This document shows, in pieces, positions 26,891 through 51,576 of a stretch of 64,000 nucleotides of DNA (the stretch's first letter is position 1; each line of letters begins with the position of its first letter). Source of the DNA: Clostridioides sp. ES-S-0010-02. GTDB taxonomy: Bacteria; Bacillota; Clostridia; Peptostreptococcales; Peptostreptococcaceae. A program made the translations under genes and the position numbers. Location: positions 861,317-925,316 of the forward strand of contig CP067345.1 in NCBI GenBank assembly GCA_020641055.1, in the 5' to 3' direction. Below the pieces are notes generated by a model. That model was given only the letters and a program-made list of their open reading frames with translations. It ran no database searches and was not told the origin of the DNA.

Positions 26891-28990
26891 ATGAATTGGA
26901 TAGAGCTTAACAATCAAGTGATAATTAAAAATGAACAAGGGAAATATCAACTGGAAAAGGATAAGGAAGCCCTAAGTAGTTACATAGAAGAATTTATAAA
27001 TCCAAAGTTAAAGAAATTTAATAATCTAGAAGAAAGATTGAAGTATCTAATGGATGAAGGTTATTATTTAGAAGAAGTAATACATAAATATAGCATGGAT
27101 TTTATTAAAAAGATATACAAACTTATTGAGGAACATAAATTTAAGTTTCAATCATATATGAGTGCAAATAAATTTTATCAAAATTATGCATTAAAAAGTA
27201 ATGATGGAAAAGAGATATTAGAAACATATAATGAAAAAGTATTAATTGTAGCTTTAACATTAGGAAATGGTGATGAGAGTCTAGCTTTAAACTTGGCAGA
27301 CAAAATAGTAAAACAAGAATTTCAACCAGCTACACCTACATTTTTAAATGCTGGAAGAAAGAGAGCAGGAGAAATGGTATCATGTTTTTTACTATCTGTA
27401 GAAGATAGCACAGAAGGTATTTCATATGCGATATCTTCATCAAATCATTTATCAAAAATAGGTGGAGGAGTTGCGTTAAACTTATCTAAGCTTAGAGCAT
27501 CAGGTGAATCTATTAAAGATATAGAAGGTGCAGCTGGAGGTGTTGTTGGAGTAGCTAAAATGTTGGAACAATCATTCAGCTATTTTAATCAGATGGGAGC
27601 TAGACAAGGTTCTGGTGCAGTTTATCTCACAGTATTTCATCCTGATTTTGAATTATTGATGGATACTAAAAAGATAAATGCTGATGAAAAAATAAGACTT
27701 GCTACATTATCGCTGGGAGCTATTATACCTGATAAATTTATGGAGTTAGCAGAAAAAAATGAAGTAGCTTATGCATTTTATCCTCATACTGTGTATAAAA
27801 AGTATGGAGTTTACCTTGATGAGATAGAAATGAGTGAGTGGTATGATAGATTAGTTAATGATGAAGATATAAGAAAAAAAGAAATAAATCCTAGACAAAT
27901 GTTGACTAAAATAGCACAAATGCAACAAGAAAGTGGATATCCATATGTAGTGTATATAGATACAGCCAATAGGGAACATACATTGAAAGAGGTTGGTATG
28001 GTAAAAATGTCTAACTTGTGTTGTGAAATCTTCCAGTATCAAACATCTTCAGAAATAGAAGGCTATGGTGGAGAAAATAAATGGGGTCAAGATATAAGTT
28101 GTAATCTTGGTTCTTTAAATATAGCAAATGTTATGGACAATAAAACTATAGAAAGCACAGTTGAGACATCAATAAGAGCATTGACATTTGTAGCGGACAA
28201 AACAAACATAAAGCCAGTACCAACTGTAAATAATAGTAATAGCAAATCTCATTCTATAGGATTGGGAGCTATGAATTTGCATGGATACTTAGTAAGAGAA
28301 AATATTTTATATACTTCAGAGGATGCTGTAGAGTTTTCTGATGTATTTTTTGCAATGATTAGATATTATTCAATTAAAGCATCTATGAAAATAGCTATAG
28401 AAAAAAATCAAACTTTTGAAGGGTTTGAAAAATCAGAATATGCTAAGGGAAGAAAAAGCAAGGTATTATCAAAATACTATGAACAATCTTATCTACCTAA
28501 GCTAGAAAAGGTAAAAGCATTATTTGAAGGTATTTATATACCAACAAAAGAAGATTGGACAAAATTATTGGATGAGGTCAAAGAAAAAGGTATATATAAT
28601 GCATATTTAATGGCAGTAGCCCCAACTCAAAGCATTAGTTATGTCCAAAATGCAACATCAAGTATAATGCCAATTACTGAGCCAGTAGAAGTAAGAACAT
28701 ATGGAGATTCAACTACAATATATCCAATGCCATTTTTAACTAATGAAAATATGTTGTATTATCAATCAGCATATAGAATGGATATGAGGAAAGTTATAGA
28801 TTTAGTATCAACAGTTCAACAACATGTTGACCAAGGAATATCAACAACATTGTTTGTTACAGATGAAAAGACAACTAGAGATATAGCTAGACATTACATA
28901 TATGCATATAAAAAAGGTCTTAAAAGTTTATATTACACAAGAACAAAGATGACAAGAGATACTCATGAGTGTCTAGTATGTTCAGTATAG
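26891..28990 (+). CDS. nrdE: Class Ib ribonucleotide reductase, large (alpha) subunit
   Basis: 699 residues. It starts WIELNNQV like NrdE proteins, with the class Ib N-terminal domain and no ATP-cone, so overall activity control by dATP at that site is absent. Active-site cysteines are visible in MVSCFLLSV and SNLCCEIFQ, the radical-transfer tyrosines lie in the C-terminal half, and the C-terminal redox pair is in HECLVCSV. With NrdF it reduces ribonucleoside diphosphates to deoxyribonucleotides. Two NrdR boxes precede it. The partner gene follows by 12 bases. No nrdI or nrdH is in this window. Confidence 0.95.
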   Translation: MNWIELNNQVIIKNEQGKYQLEKDKEALSSYIEEFINPKLKKFNNLEERLKYLMDEGYYLEEVIHKYSMDFIKKIYKLIEEHKFKFQSYMSANKFYQNYALKSNDGKEILETYNEKVLIVALTLGNGDESLALNLADKIVKQEFQPATPTFLNAGRKRAGEMVSCFLLSVEDSTEGISYAISSSNHLSKIGGGVALNLSKLRASGESIKDIEGAAGGVVGVAKMLEQSFSYFNQMGARQGSGAVYLTVFHPDFELLMDTKKINADEKIRLATLSLGAIIPDKFMELAEKNEVAYAFYPHTVYKKYGVYLDEIEMSEWYDRLVNDEDIRKKEINPRQMLTKIAQMQQESGYPYVVYIDTANREHTLKEVGMVKMSNLCCEIFQYQTSSEIEGYGGENKWGQDISCNLGSLNIANVMDNKTIESTVETSIRALTFVADKTNIKPVPTVNNSNSKSHSIGLGAMNLHGYLVRENILYTSEDAVEFSDVFFAMIRYYSIKASMKIAIEKNQTFEGFEKSEYAKGRKSKVLSKYYEQSYLPKLEKVKALFEGIYIPTKEDWTKLLDEVKEKGIYNAYLMAVAPTQSISYVQNATSSIMPITEPVEVRTYGDSTTIYPMPFLTNENMLYYQSAYRMDMRKVIDLVSTVQQHVDQGISTTLFVTDEKTTRDIARHYIYAYKKGLKSLYYTRTKMTRDTHECLVCSV

Positions 28991-41440: not shown

Positions 41441-41597
41441 ATTGTATTAATTATTAAGATTCTATACGAATATGACATAATAAATGTCAAAATTATAAAA
41501 ATATTCTACTTATATAAAGTATAAAGAGGTTATATGCACATATCTGTAGAAATAAATAATATAAAATATTAATTAATGTTATTAGGGGGTGTTATTT

Positions 41598-41800
41598 ATT
41601 AGTAAATTAGCTAATGCATTGAGAATGATGATATTAATTCAAAGTAGAGGTAAAATGAAATGCAAAGAGTTAGCAGAAGAGTTGGAAGTAAGTGAAAGGC
41701 AAATAAAAAGTTAGATTATTAGATAATGAAGTTTCAATTCTAGATATGATAAATTCACAACTAAAGTATAATAATGATATTTATAAAAATCATGGATAGT
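41598..41800 (+). pseudogene. Remnant of an HTH_11 (YafY-type) regulator
   Basis: From 41598 one frame reads SKLANALRMMILIQSRGKMK then CKELAEELEVSERQIKS and stops at 41712-41714. That is the first two thirds of a YafY-type winged helix, comparable to the start of the intact regulator at 30749. A GGGGG site lies just upstream, but only ATT or GTG could serve as start. A short out-of-frame open stretch (to about 41800) follows without a WYL domain. I read it as a decayed, truncated gene next to the foreign block. Confidence 0.55.
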
Positions 41801-42035
41801 AAAGATAAACAACTGAAACCAGCATATAATATATAGTTTGCTTAAGTTCAGTATAATAAGCAACCAACACTACAACATTAATAATATTTTTAGCTCTATT
41901 TGTTAAGTATGTTTTTGTTTATAATAGAGACTTTATGTAAAGTAATTAAAAATATACTTGTTAATACAAGTAAAAAGGAGTTATCACAGAATAAATTTAA
42001 TTTGCTTATACAACATTCATCCAAAATTTTTTACT
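41801..42035. other. Gene-free AT-rich stretch at the left edge of the signalling block
   Basis: No credible coding frame or named site. It joins the decayed regulator to the operator of the TetR gene and may hold the left boundary of the acquired block, but I see no direct repeats or attachment site. Confidence 0.4.
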
Positions 42036-42100
42036 TACTAAAATTTAATAATAGTAAATTTTAGTAAATTATTGACTTTTATAGAAATTTACAATATCAT
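42036..42100 (+). promoter_or_regulatory. Promoter of the tetR gene with a perfect palindrome
   Basis: TACTAAAATTTA (42036-42047) and TAAATTTTAGTA (42055-42066) form a perfect 12-bp inverted repeat with a 7-base centre. It directly precedes -35 TTGACT (42072-42077) and -10 TATCAT (42095-42100), spaced 17. The geometry suggests autoregulation by the TetR protein encoded next. Confidence 0.65.
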
Positions 42101-42149
42101 GAGTTAAGTATAGTTATATTTATGCATATTGTTGGAAAGGAGGGTTTTA

Positions 42150-42785
42150 ATGGCTAATGAAGAAATCCGTGAGGAAAATATAAAAAAAGTATTAAATTGT
42201 GCTATTGAATGCTTTAAAATTCATGGTCTGGAAGCAACTACAGTTACAATGGTCGCAAAAAAAGTTGGTCTTACAACTCGTTCTCTCCAAAGATACTTTG
42301 GTAACAAAAATAATTTGGTGATGCAGGCTATGGCCTTATTGCTAAATCAATCATATATTGAAATTAAAAATTCTTTTGAGAGTAAAGAATTTTTATCTAA
42401 AACAGGCTTTGAACAAATAATAGAAATCCTAAAAATAAGAGCAGAACATGTTAAAAAGCATTTTGAAGTTACAATCAACCTTACTGAGTTAGAAGTGTAT
42501 TTTTCTAAAAATAATTTAAATCTAGAAATATTTAGAAATTACATGGGAGGTTCTGGATATGTGGATATTGCATTGTCTAAATCTCTTGATCTTGCTTTAA
42601 ATGATTCATCTATTAGAAGTGATATAGATAAAATTGCTGCTATTGATGTTCTATCAACAACATATAAGGGTTTGTTGCAAAGAATAGCTTTTTTATATAA
42701 CAATAAAGAAATAAAAAATGAAGTAAGCCCTGATAGATTAATAGATTCATTTATCAAAGTTATAACTTTATATTTAAAAGGCTAA
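42150..42785 (+). CDS. TetR family transcriptional regulator
   Basis: 211 residues. The N-terminal HTH runs about 8-55: VLNCAIECFKIHGLEATTVT, then KKVGLTTRSLQRYFGNKNNL, with RSLQRYF in place of the usual GSLYHYF. The C-terminal ligand domain is not assignable. An in-frame TTG at 42129 overlaps AAAGGAGG, so ATG 42150 is the start. It is the first gene of the block containing GATC tetranucleotides (one in this gene at 42588), which are absent from the rest of the window. It may control the c-di-GMP and kinase genes that follow, though they have a separate leader. Confidence 0.88.
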   Translation: MANEEIREENIKKVLNCAIECFKIHGLEATTVTMVAKKVGLTTRSLQRYFGNKNNLVMQAMALLLNQSYIEIKNSFESKEFLSKTGFEQIIEILKIRAEHVKKHFEVTINLTELEVYFSKNNLNLEIFRNYMGGSGYVDIALSKSLDLALNDSSIRSDIDKIAAIDVLSTTYKGLLQRIAFLYNNKEIKNEVSPDRLIDSFIKVITLYLKG

Positions 42786-42815
42786 CACTGTATGATGGTG
42801 ATATGGTGTTTTTTT
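42784..42815 (+). terminator. Terminator after tetR
   Basis: AACACTGTAT (42784-42793) pairs with ATATGGTGTT (42801-42810), with G-U pairs, and is followed by a T run. Confidence 0.75.
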
Positions 42816-42945
42816 ATAAGTAATCCTGTCGCATATAAGGACATATACGAATAAGAAAAAAGAAAAGATGCAATCAAAAGAATTTAACATTATTTTATGT
42901 TGATATGACATTTTTAAAAAACAATACTAAAAGGAGATATATAGT

Positions 42946-45678
42946 ATGAAAAATTTGAATCCATGTTTAAATGGAGAAAATATTATTATACCTGCTCTTA
43001 AAAATATCCTTATTGTTGATGATAATAAGGTCAATCGACAAATACTCAATAAAATTTTGAGTAGCCAATACAACATAATTGAAGCAGAAAATGGAGAAGT
43101 TGCATTATCTATTCTGCATCAAAATCATGAAAATATATCTGTAGTTTTGCTTGATATTATTATGCCTGTTTTAAATGGTTATGAGTTACTTAAACGAATG
43201 CATGAGGACATTTTTTTGTCTAAAATTCCTACTATTGTAACAAGTGGTCAAAATAGTGAAGATGCTGAGATTAAAGCCTTATCTTTAGGTGCAAATGATT
43301 ATATCATTAAGCCATATAAACCAGAGATTATCAAGCAGCGTGTCTCTAACACAATATATCTTAGAGAAACATCTGCATTTATAAACTTAGTACAAAACGA
43401 TTCGTTGACTAGCACATTTAGCAAAGAATATTTTTATATGTGTGTTGCAGAAACACTTCAAAGCAATCCACAAAAACAATACGATCTCATTTGTTTAGAT
43501 ATTGAACGATTCAAGCTGGTTAATGATATGTATGGTATTAAAGTCGGTGATGATCTGTTAAAGCATGTTGGAAAGACGCTCATTAGTATTGTCAATGAAT
43601 ATGGTATTTGTGGACGTATAGCAGCAGACGAATTTATTTGTTTAGTTCCTCATTGTGAAGAATATCAAAATGAATATTTTAAAAATATAACTGAAATGAT
43701 TAATGGTTTTTCTGATACAATAAAAATAAATTTAATTTTACGTTATGGAATTTACTGTATTGAAGATAGATCTACTCCTATCAATATTATGTGTGACAGA
43801 GCTAACCTAGCAAAAGAATCTATAAAAGGTAAATACGATACTTATTTTGCTTATTATGATGATAATATCAGACAAAAACTTTTAGATGAACAAATGATTG
43901 TTTCAGATATGAAAAATGCTTTGATAGAAAATCAATTCAAGGTATATTTTCAGCCTAAATATGATTTAAAGACACAAGAAATTGTAGGAGCTGAGGCATT
44001 AGTTCGCTGGATTCATCCTACCAAAGGTTTTATGCTTCCTAGTAATTTTATTCCCATTTTCGAAAAAAATGGATTTATTACTGATCTTGATATTTATGTA
44101 TGGGATCAATGTTGTCAAAAGATAAGAGCATGGATAGATCGGGGATACACTTCAATTCCAATTTCCATTAATGTATCTCGTGCTGACATTTATAATCCTA
44201 GTATAGTAGAAATTTTGATTTCTATGATTCAAAAATATAAGCTTAGTCCCAAAAATCTACATTTGGAAATCACAGAAACTGCTTATACTGAAAATCCAGA
44301 ACAACTGATTGAAGTAGTATTAAAACTGAAAAAGATAGGATTTATTATTGAGATGGATGATTTTGGAACAGGTTATTCCTCACTTAATATGCTCTCTGAG
44401 CTTCCAATTGATGTTTTAAAACTAGATATGCGATTTATTAAAAGAGAAGAAAAGAAAAATAATGACAGAAGTATTTTAAGTTTTATTATAAGTCTTGCAA
44501 AATGGATGGATTTAAAGGTTATAGCAGAAGGTGTAGAAACTGAAGTTCAAGTACAGCTTTTAAAAGCATTGAACTGTGAGTATGCACAAGGGTATTATTA
44601 CTCAAAGCCACTGCCACAGGAACAGTTTGAACAACATTTATTAAAATCTCATATACAAGTAGTGAATAAAAATAAAAAAGAATGTCAACATTTTGTTAAG
44701 AATTTTAAAGATAAAAAAAATATTATGCTTGTTTTAGATCCTGATTCTGTTGATTTTTCAAGGCTTAAAAAAGATTATAAATATCAATTTTTTGTAGAAC
44801 ATGTACATAGAGCATCTGATGCCATAGACTTTATTATCGAATTAGAAGAAAAAATTTCAGTTCTTATAGTAAGTATTTCTAAATATATCAGGCCTAAGCA
44901 AATGTTGCAAATACTTGATGTCTGCAAGAAAATCAATGTTACAGTAATCGTATTGTATGATAAGATATATGATAAAAAAAATAAAATCCTAAACATGGAT
45001 ATATATGACTATGTTGAAAGGCCATATGATTTACTACAGTTAAATCTACGTATTCAAAATGCTATTGCATTTGCTAAAATGAAAAAATTTGAATATGAAA
45101 AAGAAGTTAACTCAACTATTATAGAAATGAGAAAACGTGCTGAACATGATGCGTTGACAGGTCTATTAAACCGTGCTGAATATGAAGTACGAATTGATAA
45201 TTTTTTTCATAATAATTACAATCCAAGTGGTATTTTTGTAATATTAGATATAGACAATTTCAAGTCTATTAATGATACCTATGGACATGTAGTTGGCGAT
45301 AAGGTATTATACATGGTTGCTGAAATGATAAAACATATTTTTCCAGAAACAGATATCATTGGACGCATTGGTGGCGATGAATTTTCCTTGTTTATTCCCT
45401 ATACCATTCCATTTTTGCAATTGCAGGAAAAGATGATTCACATATGTAAACCTAATAATTTAGATGTCAATAATATCACTATTTCTTGTTCGGCAGGCGT
45501 TTGCCTTACTCCTGATTATGGTATTAATCGTAAAGAACTTTATAAAAATGCAGATATTGCACTTCTATTAGCAAAGCGACATGGTAAAAGCAAATTTGAA
45601 ATATTTAGTCAAGGTATGAAATTGCCAACACCTTCTTCTCTTGAAAACAAGAGCAAATACTTGCTGACAATGTTTTAG
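42946..45678 (+). CDS. Multidomain c-di-GMP protein: REC, degenerate GGDEF, EAL, pseudo-REC, GGDEF
   Basis: 910 residues without membrane segments. A receiver (about 18-135) has phospho-aspartate D70 in VVLLDIIMPV. The first GGDEF domain reads AADEF and is probably inactive as a cyclase. The EAL domain (about 315-560) keeps EALVRW, EITET, DDFGTGYSS and AEGVE, so phosphodiesterase activity is likely. A second receiver-like domain (about 580-690) lacks an acceptor aspartate. The last GGDEF domain (about 725-890) has intact GGDEF with no RxxD inhibitory site. It may make and break c-di-GMP under phosphorelay control. Seven GATC sites and many CGN arginine codons set it apart from neighbours. AAGGAG precedes the ATG. 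Confidence 0.9.
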   Translation: MKNLNPCLNGENIIIPALKNILIVDDNKVNRQILNKILSSQYNIIEAENGEVALSILHQNHENISVVLLDIIMPVLNGYELLKRMHEDIFLSKIPTIVTSGQNSEDAEIKALSLGANDYIIKPYKPEIIKQRVSNTIYLRETSAFINLVQNDSLTSTFSKEYFYMCVAETLQSNPQKQYDLICLDIERFKLVNDMYGIKVGDDLLKHVGKTLISIVNEYGICGRIAADEFICLVPHCEEYQNEYFKNITEMINGFSDTIKINLILRYGIYCIEDRSTPINIMCDRANLAKESIKGKYDTYFAYYDDNIRQKLLDEQMIVSDMKNALIENQFKVYFQPKYDLKTQEIVGAEALVRWIHPTKGFMLPSNFIPIFEKNGFITDLDIYVWDQCCQKIRAWIDRGYTSIPISINVSRADIYNPSIVEILISMIQKYKLSPKNLHLEITETAYTENPEQLIEVVLKLKKIGFIIEMDDFGTGYSSLNMLSELPIDVLKLDMRFIKREEKKNNDRSILSFIISLAKWMDLKVIAEGVETEVQVQLLKALNCEYAQGYYYSKPLPQEQFEQHLLKSHIQVVNKNKKECQHFVKNFKDKKNIMLVLDPDSVDFSRLKKDYKYQFFVEHVHRASDAIDFIIELEEKISVLIVSISKYIRPKQMLQILDVCKKINVTVIVLYDKIYDKKNKILNMDIYDYVERPYDLLQLNLRIQNAIAFAKMKKFEYEKEVNSTIIEMRKRAEHDALTGLLNRAEYEVRIDNFFHNNYNPSGIFVILDIDNFKSINDTYGHVVGDKVLYMVAEMIKHIFPETDIIGRIGGDEFSLFIPYTIPFLQLQEKMIHICKPNNLDVNNITISCSAGVCLTPDYGINRKELYKNADIALLLAKRHGKSKFEIFSQGMKLPTPSSLENKSKYLLTMF

Positions 45679-46029
45679 ATGTTATATTTGCTTGTGATGC
45701 TATAAACAATAAAGTCATTTATATCAATGAAACAGCGTGTAAACTGATTGGAAAAGATAAAGAGAGTTTTATAGGTCAAAAATGTTACCAATTATTTTGC
45801 TATCAATATTGCAACTGTGATATTGTGAATATCTTAATCAAAGGTTTGATTTTTATGAGGAAATTAGAACTATTATCACACTTATGAATATACCAAAGAA
45901 TAAAAATTATAAAAGAGAAATATAAGCTTGGTATATGAATTTCAATTTGAGAAATCAGATATAATAGATTTGTTTAAAGAATTGTCTAAGGAGATAAAAT
46001 GGTATGAATATAGAAGAGGAAAAAAATAA
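45666..46029 (+). pseudogene. Frameshifted PAS-like tail of the REC-GGDEF-EAL protein
   Basis: After the stop of the previous gene, coding-like sequence continues in three successive frames. From 45666 it reads ADNVLDVIFACDAINNKVIY and GQKCYQLFCYQYC, a cysteine-rich PAS pattern. From 45836 it reads NQRFDFYEEIRTIITLMN. From 45913 it runs through SLVYEFQFEKSDIIDLFKEL to a stop at 46027-46029, overlapping the next gene's start. A lost base around 45650-45675 would explain why the upstream protein ends abruptly after its GGDEF domain. So the ancestral protein was about 115 residues longer. Sequencing error is possible but would need three events. Confidence 0.7.
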
Positions 46030-49000
46030 CTTAATAGATGATAGTCAATATCAACTTGAACTATATCGTTCATCAAGCTTGGGTGGAGTTTATACTGTCA
46101 AAATGGATGATAAGTTTACTTTATTATATGGAAATGACCTGTACTTTCAGCTACATGGATATCAGAAGGAAAAATTACTAAATAAAAGCTGTACCATTTT
46201 TATTCATCCAGAAGACCTTAAAAATGTGCAAGAGGCTCTTTTTAAGGCAAAGAAAGCGAATAGTAAAACAGCTGAATGGGAAATGCGTATTTTGACTGGT
46301 GATGGAAAAATTAAGCATACACTTGTAAGTGGACGTTTTAATATTCGAAATTATGAGAAAGTATTTGATGGCTACATTACTGATATCACAAAGCAAAAAC
46401 AAATGGAGGAGAAGATATTACAGTTAACCGAAATTGAAACAGATCTACGTAAGCAAATAGATCTTTATCGTACTACAGATCTTGGTGGTGTTTTCACTGT
46501 AGTAGTAGATGAAAATTTCACACTACTTTATGGAAATGATAAGTACTATAAAATACATGAATATACAAAAGAGAGCATGCTAGAACGTATTCACAATCAT
46601 TGTTCAGAATATGTTCATCCTTATGACTTACCTATAGTGCATGAGATTATTCACACTGCATTAAACTCTGGGAAAGATTACGTGGAGTGGGACATGCGTG
46701 TTATAACTGGCAATGGAAATATTCGATATATTCTTTGTAGTGGTGTATTTGATAATAAAGATGGAGTAACTCTTATGAATGGTGTAGTAATGGATATTAC
46801 CAAACAAAAAAGGATCGAACAAGCATTGCGTGAGAGTGAAGAGAAATTTAGGATTGCAACTGAAAATTCTGATGTAGCGTTTTGGTCATACAATTTTGAG
46901 AAAAAAGAAATTTTCCAAACACAATCATCAAAATTTATGCATGGATATGACAACATTGTAAAAAATGTGCCTGAATCACTAGTTGAAGAGGGCTATATTC
47001 GTAGCGATTCTATCAAAGAATATTTAGAAATGTACTATAAAATGAGAAATGGAGCCAAAACTGTTTCTGGTGAATTTTGGATGAAGAATTTAGATACTAA
47101 TGGATGGTGGTGTGAACATATAGACTATACTACTGTTTTTGATGAAACTGGAAAACCAGTTTATGCCCACGCCATAGGTAAAGATGTTACCACTAAAAAA
47201 CTTGCAGAAAGTCGCTATAATGAGGAAATTTCATACAAAAATGCACTTATATCTGAAGATATAGTTGCAAGTATGCGTGTTGACCTTACATCTGGTTTGG
47301 TAGAGGAAGTCGATTCACCATATGAGGAAATAATTGAAAATTATTTTGGAAAAAACTATAGTGAGTGTGTTGCTATCTTGTCTGATTTACTTATTAATGA
47401 TGAACAGAAAAACGATTTTTTATCATCAATGCAGACAGATATTTTGGTTGAAGATTTTAAAAATGGAGAGACCAAAAAAAATTTCCATGTACAACGTAAA
47501 ATGCCAGATAATACATATCGTTGGGTGTCTACTACCATTAAACTCTTTCAAAAACCAAATAGTGACCATATTGTTGGTTTTCTATATAGTTATGATATTA
47601 ATAATGAAATACTATTTCATCAAATTATGGATCTAATTTCACATACCAACTATGATTTTGTAGGTTACATCAATGCGATTAATGCTAGTTATATTTTATT
47701 CGCTGATAATGGTAAAAAAGTTTTATCCAAGAACACGAAAAAAAGTTATGAAAGTACTATTTCTGAATACTTTTCAAAATATTTAGATAGAAAACAGCAT
47801 GATGAAATAATAAATAAACTATTACTTTCTGTTGTTACAAAAGAACTAGAGACTAAAAATGTTTATACTATTGAATATACTATTAAGGTTGAAAATGGTG
47901 TAGAGAAAAGAAAACAATTAAAATTTGCCTATATTGATAAACAAGCACAAACGCTTTTTTACACGCAAAGTGACATTACTGAGATTATAAATAATGAAAA
48001 GAAGCATCAAGAAATTCTTCATGATGCTTTGGTAGCAGCAAAACAGGCAAATAAAGCAAAAACTGAATTTTTATCCCATATGAGCCATGAAATACGCACT
48101 CCTATGAATGCAATTATTGGTATGTCTACATTGGCTGCACAGGTTGTCAATGATACTGAACAGGTTTCTGATTGTTTATCTAAGATAGGTATTTCAGCAC
48201 GTTTTCTACTGTCATTGATTAATGATATTCTGGATATGAGTCGTATTGAAAGTGGTAAGCTTTCTGTAAAACAAGAAAAAATACCATTTGAAGAATTTAT
48301 AAATGGTATTAACGCCATAAGCTATACGCAGGCACAAGATAAAGGTGTTGATTATGATGCTATTGTTACAAGCTTTACCGAAAATTACTATATTGGTGAT
48401 GCCATGAAACTTCAACAGGTATTGGTTAATATTATCAGTAATGCAATCAAATTTACACCAAAAGGTGGTAAAGTACAGTTTATTATAAGTCAAGAAAAAC
48501 AAACCAAGGATTTTGCAAACATGAAATTTATTATTAATGACACAGGTGTAGGTATTAGTGAAGATTTTATCAATCATATTTTTGAGCCATTTACACAACA
48601 GCATATGGGTTCTACAGCCATGTATGGTGGAACTGGATTAGGTCTTGCTATTTGCAAACACCTTGTAGAACTAATGGGTGGAGAAATCAGTGTAAATAGT
48701 ATTGAGGGAGTTGGTAGTGAATTTGTAATTGAACTAAAGTTAGGAGTGAGCGAAGAGAGTCATAAAAAATCCATAAAAAAATCTCAAGTTCACTTTAATA
48801 AAATGAAGGCACTTATTGTAGATGATGATATTATCATCTGTCGACATACAGAGCAAATTTTAGAAGATATGGGTTTAAAAGCAGATTATGTAGATTCAGG
48901 GATGAGTGCCATTAAACGAGTGCAAGAACTTTGGAATAAAGATGTATATTATGATATTATATTAGTTGACTGGAAGATGCCTAATATGGATGGGATTGAG

Positions 49001-49612
49001 ACAACTCGCGCATTAAGAAAAATTGTAGGTCAAAATGTTACTATAATCATCATGACAGCTTATGATTGGCTTTCAATAGAAAAAGAAGCAAAAAGTGCAG
49101 GAGTTAATATGCTGATTAGTAAGCCATTATTTCGTGATTCTATTTCATCTGCATTTGAAAAAATATATATGAAAAAAGATGAAGAAATTGTGCCACCAAA
49201 TGAATGTGTATATGATTTTACTGGTAAACGAGTATTGCTTGTAGAAGATCATATGCTAAATATTGAGGTAGCCAAACGATTACTTAATTCTAAAAATTTA
49301 GAAGTTGATGTTGCAGAAAACGGATTGCTTGGTATTGAGGCATTTGCTTCTGCACCAGCAGGATACTATGATGCTATCCTTATGGATATACGTATGCCAG
49401 TTATGGATGGACTTTTAGCTGCAAAATCTATTCGTCAAATGCGTAAGAAAAATGCAGCAACTATTCCTATAATTGCCATGACTGCTAATGCTTTTGATGA
49501 AGATATAGAGAAAACAAAGGAAGCAGGAATGAATGCCCATATTGCTAAACCTGTAGAGCCAAAGAAATTATTCAGTACCATAAATAATTTCTTTTCTTGT
49601 GAGAATAAATAA
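46004..49612 (+). CDS. Large hybrid sensor histidine kinase (PAS repeats, HisKA, HATPase, two receivers)
   Basis: 1202 residues, no membrane helices. Two closely related N-terminal PAS domains (about 20-130 and 150-265; both carry LGGV followed by FTLLYGND) look like an internal duplication. A third PAS (about 280-400) and two less clear sensor domains follow. HisKA has H695 in SHMSHEIRTPMNA; HATPase has NIISNAIKFTP and GGTGLGLAICKHLVELMGG. Two receivers follow with D989 in LVDWKMPNMDG and D1128 in LMDIRMPVMDG. A separate Hpt protein is encoded next, so this is a multistep phosphorelay, and the receiver of the c-di-GMP protein upstream is a plausible final target. Six GATC sites lie in this gene. 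Confidence 0.9.
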   Translation: MNIEEEKNNLIDDSQYQLELYRSSSLGGVYTVKMDDKFTLLYGNDLYFQLHGYQKEKLLNKSCTIFIHPEDLKNVQEALFKAKKANSKTAEWEMRILTGDGKIKHTLVSGRFNIRNYEKVFDGYITDITKQKQMEEKILQLTEIETDLRKQIDLYRTTDLGGVFTVVVDENFTLLYGNDKYYKIHEYTKESMLERIHNHCSEYVHPYDLPIVHEIIHTALNSGKDYVEWDMRVITGNGNIRYILCSGVFDNKDGVTLMNGVVMDITKQKRIEQALRESEEKFRIATENSDVAFWSYNFEKKEIFQTQSSKFMHGYDNIVKNVPESLVEEGYIRSDSIKEYLEMYYKMRNGAKTVSGEFWMKNLDTNGWWCEHIDYTTVFDETGKPVYAHAIGKDVTTKKLAESRYNEEISYKNALISEDIVASMRVDLTSGLVEEVDSPYEEIIENYFGKNYSECVAILSDLLINDEQKNDFLSSMQTDILVEDFKNGETKKNFHVQRKMPDNTYRWVSTTIKLFQKPNSDHIVGFLYSYDINNEILFHQIMDLISHTNYDFVGYINAINASYILFADNGKKVLSKNTKKSYESTISEYFSKYLDRKQHDEIINKLLLSVVTKELETKNVYTIEYTIKVENGVEKRKQLKFAYIDKQAQTLFYTQSDITEIINNEKKHQEILHDALVAAKQANKAKTEFLSHMSHEIRTPMNAIIGMSTLAAQVVNDTEQVSDCLSKIGISARFLLSLINDILDMSRIESGKLSVKQEKIPFEEFINGINAISYTQAQDKGVDYDAIVTSFTENYYIGDAMKLQQVLVNIISNAIKFTPKGGKVQFIISQEKQTKDFANMKFIINDTGVGISEDFINHIFEPFTQQHMGSTAMYGGTGLGLAICKHLVELMGGEISVNSIEGVGSEFVIELKLGVSEESHKKSIKKSQVHFNKMKALIVDDDIIICRHTEQILEDMGLKADYVDSGMSAIKRVQELWNKDVYYDIILVDWKMPNMDGIETTRALRKIVGQNVTIIIMTAYDWLSIEKEAKSAGVNMLISKPLFRDSISSAFEKIYMKKDEEIVPPNECVYDFTGKRVLLVEDHMLNIEVAKRLLNSKNLEVDVAENGLLGIEAFASAPAGYYDAILMDIRMPVMDGLLAAKSIRQMRKKNAATIPIIAMTANAFDEDIEKTKEAGMNAHIAKPVEPKKLFSTINNFFSCENK

Positions 49613-49719
49613 TAAATTGAGAGTTAACTAAGTTTATACAAGAAGAAGGATAAGAATAATATCGTGGTTTGGAGATGATGAGTAATATATATAATCTTAC
49701 TTAGATAAAGGAGTGTATA

Positions 49720-50088
49720 ATGATAATGAGTATGTTTATAGATAAACTTTCAACATATGGTGTAAATATTGAAAAGGTCATGGAACGATTTGTAAATGAC
49801 GAGAACTTATACTACACTTGTCTCTTGTCTTTTATAGAAGATACCTCTTTTGACAAACTTGGTGAGGCAATAGAAAATAGAGATTTCAGCTATGCTTTTG
49901 AGCAATCTCATACCCTAAAGGGTGTGTCTGGTAATCTAGGACTTACAGGAATTTTTAAATCTGTATGTATAATTGTAGAGTCTCTAAGACACAATGAATA
50001 CGATAATCTACAACAACTTTTCCAAATTGTTCTTGCAGAAAAAGAAAAGTTAGAACAACTATTAAGTACCCTTATAGTAGACAGTTAA
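49720..50088 (+). CDS. Histidine phosphotransfer (Hpt) protein
   Basis: 122 residues, all helical by appearance. The phospho-histidine is H64 in EQSHTLKGVSGNLGL, the standard Hpt motif. It should shuttle phosphate between the receivers of the hybrid kinase just upstream and a response regulator, most likely the REC-GGDEF-EAL protein of the same block. AAAGGAG precedes the ATG; a second in-frame ATG two codons later is possible. It has no GATC sites, but it is short, so this does not exclude shared ancestry with the block. Confidence 0.88.
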   Translation: MIMSMFIDKLSTYGVNIEKVMERFVNDENLYYTCLLSFIEDTSFDKLGEAIENRDFSYAFEQSHTLKGVSGNLGLTGIFKSVCIIVESLRHNEYDNLQQLFQIVLAEKEKLEQLLSTLIVDS

Positions 50089-50307
50089 AATAATAAAATT
50101 GATACTATGAGGGTATTAAATTTTTATGTCAATAAAATCTAAAATAAACCTTGAGGTAAAAACTAAATCAGTTGAAAATAATGATAATTACCAATTGAGT
50201 TCATTTAAATATAAAGTTTTATATTAACTAAGTTATATCTAAATAAAATATACTTGCACTATAAATATGACAAAAAATCAATATAAAAATGAGGTGAAAT
50301 AAAATTT

Positions 50308-51018: not shown

Positions 51019-51576
51019 TGTTTAAATTGAATAGTAATACTAAAACTATTTATGATAAAGAATTATTTGAATCAAGACATGAAATATATAATTCTAAAGT
51101 ATATGATAATTTAATAGAAGAAATAAAGTATGTAATGCATAACCACATTTTAGATGCTAGATGTGGAGAAGGATATTTCTTAAATAAATTATATGAAGAT
51201 AAAAATATTAAATATAATTTCTCCTGCAAATTATAAGGAATTTACAAGGGTTTTAACTGATGATGGGATAATAGCAAAGATTGTTCCAAAATCAAATTAT
51301 TTAAAAGAAATAAGGACAAGTATACATGGAAATATAAAGAATAATGATTATGACAATAAAAACATTGTAGCTGTATTTAAAAAACATCTAAATGTGGTTT
51401 ATGAAAATAGAATCAATTATAAAACTGATATAAGTGTGTTAAATTTAATGAATTTAGTCAAAATGACTCCTTTAACATCAACATTAGATGAAGAAGAGAT
51501 TTTAAGGTTGATAAAGTCAGGGATATCTAATATAACAATTGATTTAAGAGTTATGGTCGGTACATTAAAGAGATAG
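51015..51576 (+). pseudogene. Broken RlmA-type 23S rRNA (guanine-N1) methyltransferase
   Basis: Two pieces in different frames. The first (51015-51236) reads TIYDKELFESRHEIYN and HILDARCGEGYFLNKLYED, the methyltransferase motif I region. The second (from about 51205) reads ISPANYKEFTRVLTDDGIIA, the motif typical of RlmA after the active-site region, and ends normally at 51576. The part between motif I and the PANYxEF segment is missing, and no zinc-binding N-terminus (C-x2-C) is seen upstream, so about half of a ~270-residue gene has been lost. The inverted repeat at 50924 lies where the 5' part should be. Confidence 0.7.

Follow-up and report, generated by a model that had tools for sequence, protein, structure and literature searches.

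A foreign signalling block at the site of a type I-B CRISPR-Cas locus in a GATC-avoiding Clostridioides genome

What does it mean when a tetranucleotide that is expected more than a hundred times in a stretch of bacterial DNA occurs only within a single group of genes? This question is raised by a 64,000-nucleotide stretch of Clostridioides sp. ES-S-0010-02 (GenBank assembly GCA_020641055.1, contig CP067345.1, positions 861,317 to 925,316), hereafter the window, in which GATC is confined to a block of genes for two-component and cyclic di-GMP (c-di-GMP) signalling. An initial annotation had listed 14 sites (42588, 43483, 43552, 43769, 44083, 44104, 44137, 44737, 46442, 46460, 46478, 46813, 47630 and 49247), all of which were confirmed, with no further site in the 64,000 bases. 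They lie within 6,663 bases and the remainder contains none, whereas 137.8 sites are expected for the window from trinucleotide counts and 152 from independent bases, and the annotation had put the expectation for the other ~57 kb at well over a hundred. The analysis described here leads to a joint reading, with a probability of roughly 0.85, that the genus Clostridioides avoids GATC, that the native type I-B CRISPR-Cas (clustered regularly interspaced short palindromic repeats and associated genes) locus was deleted from this lineage after its split from the nearest congener compared (genome G001), and that a foreign signalling block of about 8 kb came to stand in its place.

GATC was the most depleted tetranucleotide of the window (0.10 of expectation), followed by CGCG (0.39, with an expectation of only 2.6). 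Shuffling of synonymous codons gave 70.8 +/- 6.0 expected sites for 44 neighbouring genes, in which 0 were observed, and 19.2 +/- 3.1 for the four genes of the block, in which 14 were observed; the block holds roughly its natural number of sites, and the surrounding genes have been cleared of the word. Codon usage separates the block from its neighbours as well. CGN codons account for 47 of its 75 arginine codons (47 CGN and 28 AGR) and for 57 of the 434 elsewhere in the window (57 and 377), a contrast that had already been seen by eye, and ATA makes up 77 of 255 isoleucine codons in the block against 964 of 1631 outside it. At the rate found in a genome sample (60 pieces of 20 kb each, covering 28% of the 4.26-Mb genome, after removal of GC-rich parts), at least 14 GATC in 8 kb would have a probability of about 6e-11. 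The zero count in the rest of the window also lies below the genome's own rate (P about 2e-4), and only 6 of the 60 sampled stretches were free of GATC; the annotation's statement that none occur elsewhere is thus correct for the window, although partly a matter of luck.

The CRISPR-Cas site and its scars

Eight genomes of the genus were compared, one per species (the present genome and seven congeners). Alignment with the seven congeners shows shared sequence up to window position 41,790, which resumes at 50,204-50,219; the main flanking pieces are 93-95% identical to G001, and 9,678 bases stand between the shared flanks in G001 against 8,425 in the window. The segment in G001 encodes a WYL regulator, Cas6, Cas8b, Cas7, Cas5, Cas3, Cas4, Cas1 and Cas2. 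After these genes comes an array with seven repeats, of which the final one is degenerate, and spacers of 37-38 nt. Arrays of the same repeat were found at this site in the other six congeners, and all seven have Cas1 there and only there. The site in the congeners is a type I-B CRISPR-Cas locus, with the full gene set identified in G001; the initial annotation had not noticed that the block stands in place of such a locus. Cas8b (PF09706) was detected in seven of the eight genomes, the present one being the only one in which it was not found. Its single Cas1 belongs to a second type I-B locus elsewhere (L082), in which two spacers resemble Clostridioides phages (phiCD27 and AR1074-1) and another matches a virus from a lemur sample.

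Pieces of the lost locus remain at both edges of the block (Table 1). The stump of the WYL regulator gene lacks about 96 bp internally, contains an in-frame stop and is then cut off, whereas an intact copy (L115:4587-5540) matches the Pfam families WYL, WCX and HTH_11. As both this stump and the last degenerate repeat of an array remain, the direction is clear, and the CRISPR locus was lost here. A repeat-like stretch at 49,606-49,634 (72% like 50,206-50,234) was also considered as a second repeat; by hand it agrees with about 14 of the 28 letters of the CRISPR repeat, and it was treated as chance.

The foreign DNA extends from about 42,017 to 50,068, with relics of mobile elements at its borders. 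The left relic is 76-86% identical to copies in G000, G001, G004, G006 and G007, and a partial copy in L234 matches the NCBIfam IS1182 transposase model (E 1e-22, 80 bits, below the curated cut-off of 270). These relics suggest that insertion sequences (IS) may have taken part in the exchange, in which the native locus would have been deleted and the signalling block would then have occupied its site. A variant of the same reading, tentative but deserving serious consideration, separates two events, such that IS activity first deleted CRISPR-Cas and the block inserted afterwards, either between the IS remnants or within them. The elements at the two edges are different and degraded, which would suit this variant, and so would the natural occurrence of strains without the operon; no intermediate with a scar and no block was present among the eight genomes. 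Operon loss is already known, since the available portions of two reports describe about 10% of C. difficile strains as lacking the full cas operon (PMC10732046), whose gene set is that of G001, and two strains as having no cas genes (PMC10806358); no mention of an operon exchanged for foreign DNA was found in these portions.

The exchange must postdate the divergence from G001. Its description as recent in the initial annotation is doubtful, and a very recent arrival is argued against by the degraded edge relics, with their 76-86% identity to other copies, and by the loss of the 3' end of the REC-EAL-GGDEF gene in the block. The GATC content of the block is about what its own codon usage predicts, implying that the word has been purged slowly or not at all here. 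Dating of the block by GATC decay was considered and rejected, as the 14 observed sites are within two standard deviations of 19.2 and the level in the donor would also be needed.

Table 1. Features at the exchanged site and related loci elsewhere (first nine rows: window coordinates)
Feature	Position	Strand	Remarks
WYL-family regulator stump, opening gene of the native type I-B cas operon	41589..41790	+	aligned to 7/7 congeners, pieces 88-95% identical
IS1182-family relic (transposase gene pieces and outer end)	41801..42016	+	limits approximate
TetR-family regulator, first gene of the block	42129..42785	+	Pfam PF00440, E 1e-8; 1 GATC
REC-EAL-GGDEF protein (c-di-GMP turnover), decayed 3' end	42946..45678	+	Pfam; 7 GATC
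Hybrid histidine kinase (PAS domains, HisKA, HATPase, two REC)	46004..49612	+	Pfam; 6 GATC
Hpt phosphotransfer protein	49720..50088	+	Pfam PF01627, E 1.7e-7; final codons inside transposase-like relic
Repeated, transposase-like sequence	50069..50177	+	83% and 79% identical to intergenic copies in G000 (L225) and G001 (L232)
Probable last spacer of the lost array, 38 bases	50178..50215	+	length fits G001 spacers (37-38 nt)
Last, degenerate repeat of the lost CRISPR array	50216..50243	+	3 mismatches in 28
Second type I-B cas locus (Csh1/Cas5h type)	L082:4073-15174 (genome 1,992,073-2,003,174)		30 copies of a 30-nt repeat
Second GATC-rich stretch	L064:13344-20000 (genome 652,344-659,000)		IS1182 copy followed by strongly AT-rich DNA carrying LanC-like and ABC transporter genes
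D12 adenine methylase genes	L112:7524-8750 and L087:8890-9969		adjoin RusA phage genes; stretches almost GATC-free
Cassette of Hpt, hybrid kinase and diguanylate cyclase	L217:5574-10377		Clostridioides plasmid CP103805; raised GATC

GATC avoidance and its possible cause

Tetranucleotide counting beyond the window, carried out on the 28% sample, did not find GATC at normal frequency: 226 sites were present against 2729 expected. When 500-bp pieces with a GC content of at least 0.40 were removed, a filter intended to exclude rRNA, 177 remained against 2661 (ratio 0.067), and the highest count in any sampled 6.7-kb piece was 8 (three GC-rich pieces excluded), compared with 14 in the block. The initial claim that the host genome strongly avoids GATC is therefore borne out, and the avoidance extends to all seven congeners. 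Whole-genome counts of AGATCA are 266 here and 196-279 in the congeners, against 2431-2914 for the reversed word, a rough control in that the reversed word contains CTAG; the pooled cas-region loci of the congeners hold 5 GATC against 201 expected. Six phage stretches of the genus, each of 25-30 kb, contain 1, 0, 2, 1, 0 and 0 sites against 37-51 expected in each (pooled, 4 against about 275), although they are not six independent cases because phiC2 and phiCDKH02 are closely related. Two of three control phages were undepleted and near normal (Marinitoga, 43 against 63.5, ratio 0.68; Enterococcus, 102 against 118.2, 0.86), and the third, THSA-485A, was depleted too (10 against 48.8, 0.20). 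No account of GATC avoidance in Clostridioides was found in the literature covered (titles and abstract beginnings in partial lists, mostly outside subscription journals).

Clostridioides and its phages would thus have been under selection against GATC, as happens with restriction, and a defence that targets GATC would best account for the pattern; the agent might be a system since lost, one carried by some strains only, or one of an unrecognised kind. The depletion goes beyond composition in host and phages, but a cognate methylase and nuclease were not found in the genome. The DpnII family is absent from all eight genomes of the genus, and C5 methylases occur in two of the eight but not in this one. 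D12 (Dam-like) methylases are represented here by two genes that adjoin the phage genes RusA and RecT (Table 1), one of them truncated and the complete one having DpnM and Dam as its nearest solved relatives, and by a weakly matching 189-aa protein common to this genome and the seven congeners. DpnI was detected in none of the eight, but its control set also matched nowhere. The GATC-cutting restriction system suggested in the initial annotation thus has no counterpart in this genome within these four families, to which the search was limited. A bolder version, in which Clostridioides has or recently had an unrecognised GATC-attacking defence without a core methylase of known type, which would have cleared chromosomes and phages, and in which CRISPR loss accompanied the uptake of GATC-rich DNA, appears unlikely.

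Still less credence is given to a mutational or compositional bias without selection by any defence system. It would accommodate the negative search of the four families, as well as the mild depletion in 20-kb samples taken singly from 17 further genomes of the family and three of the order (ratios 0.34-0.80; 0.34-0.77 in the family). Low ratios in two other genomes, 0.17 in G026 and 0.24 in G051 by a 6-base count, point the same way and imply that Clostridioides may not be alone in avoiding the word strongly. Such a bias is hardly compatible with the other fifteen 4-base palindromes, which stand at 0.52-1.01 of expectation in the same filtered DNA in which GATC is at 0.067, nor with the codon shuffles of the neighbouring genes or the near absence of the word from the phages.

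Genes and origin of the block

The hybrid kinase would, from what is known of its family and the domains recognised here, sense a signal via its PAS domains, and phosphate would pass from its REC domains to the separate Hpt protein and on to the REC-EAL-GGDEF protein, altering c-di-GMP. By this analogy, the block probably works as a phosphorelay. The REC-EAL-GGDEF gene stops early, with a PAS-like piece (by eye) downstream in another frame, whereas a homologue in L150 continues to 1,138 codons. The Hpt gene has no GATC and none is expected. PADLOC gave no defence-gene match for the block proteins.

Relatives were sought for the kinase, the REC-EAL-GGDEF protein and the Hpt protein. The nearest kinases, with 51-54% identity over nearly the full length, come from 12 loci of Hespellia, Anaerostipes, other Lachnospiraceae and Eubacterium barkeri (80 of 103 confirmed loci kept), in a scan of named genomes that favours close relatives and may have missed the donor. 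Among 16 such loci examined, five have a REC-EAL-GGDEF relative of more than 120 bits nearby (L138, L141, L144, L147 and L150) and two an Hpt relative (L144 and L153). Within the family, two of 71 genomes have the kinase at E 1e-120 or better, namely this one and G001, the latter with a partial match of 36%; in the G001 contig the kinase match terminates at base 28,192, as it does in the C. difficile plasmid CP103805. No DNA match to the block was found on plasmids, and the plasmid protein search yielded only weaker kinases among the matches listed. In viral contigs, three pattern matches to REC-EAL-GGDEF included no relative.

Apart from short matches, the DNA of the block is absent from all seven congeners. 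Together with its alien codon usage and its 14 GATC against 19.2 predicted, this shows the block to be foreign and derived from a donor without GATC avoidance, as had been proposed, and absence from relatives at the site, atypical codon usage and mobile-element traces at the edges are all features of a horizontally acquired island. The opposite history would make the block the original occupant of the site, displaced by CRISPR-Cas in the other species. It draws on the fact that just one of eight genomes lacks the cas locus, so that direction rests on remnants and composition, but it is contradicted by the cut cas-operon regulator gene and the last CRISPR repeat kept here, by the foreign codon usage and GATC content of the block and by the single cas locus that seven congeners share at one site, and can be set aside as extremely improbable.

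Several observations weigh against the joint reading of an exchange by foreign DNA in a genus that avoids GATC. Both short and old, the edge relics may have been present before the exchange, and the likeness of the sequence at 50069..50177 to the start of an IS3-type transposase gene is one seen by eye. No long direct repeats flank the block, and no integrase or transfer genes are among the Pfam matches of its genes. No close donor was recovered, the best identity being 54% and the loci of the relatives having a GC content of 36-59% compared with 28-32% for the block genes; the donor lineage, which might lie near Lachnospiraceae and Eubacterium, is therefore a guess.

Downstream of the block, DNA alignment reveals the broken remains of an RlmA-like rRNA methyltransferase gene at 51026-51576; the gene is intact in G001 (L115:15340-16299), and the remaining open reading frame has no Pfam match.

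GATC as a marker and comparison with known systems

The proposal that the missing word allows acquired DNA to be dated and bounded sharply was half true. GATC-rich stretches point to foreign DNA, as in a second example (L064, Table 1), in which the first 13.3 kb have no GATC and match G001 at 94%, the following IS1182 copy has 3 sites, and the last 5.65 kb, with LanC-like and ABC genes and a GC content of 0.20, has 5 against 10.5 expected and partial congener matches only, up to about 1.1 kb, among the matches listed; this stretch looks foreign where it is rich in GATC and so supports the marker. Some native-looking genes also contain the word, with one site in alaS and 7 in 5.5 kb of a flagellin, FliD and hook-associated locus (L111:8088-13593; genome about 4.055-4.061 Mb), an exceptionally high number here, whereas acquired loci may have nearly none: two stretches with prophage genes have 1 against 35.4 and 0 against 28.7 expected, and the second CRISPR locus, which was not seen in the congeners, has 2 against 21.9. 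A prophage-gene stretch of the genome matches Clostridioides phages only (7 of 7 records). GATC is a one-sided marker, whose richness points to foreign DNA and whose absence proves nothing about native origin.

The avoidance resembles that of type II restriction sites in that a single 4-base palindrome is specifically missing from chromosome and phages, and it differs in that a whole genus avoids the word while the matching nuclease or core methylase was not found in the families searched. This raises the question of what excludes GATC from the genus and from its phages, given that outside prophages the tested families yielded no GATC system in this genome. The block itself has a partial parallel in the cassette of plasmid CP103805, which is a signalling set of the same type with GATC above the chromosome level (8 against 19.5 expected in 4.8 kb), although its kinase is only 34% identical over 58% of the query, it is plasmid-borne and its gene order differs. 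The lost locus corresponds to the full type I-B cas operon of C. difficile (CD2982-CD2975 in strain 630), whose gene set is found in G001 at this site; judging from the neighbouring genes, this is presumably also its chromosomal place in strain 630. In the present genome that operon is gone and a signalling block stands between its remnants, which makes a clean case of the adaptive immune locus of all seven congeners exchanged for foreign signalling genes, with scars that can still be read.

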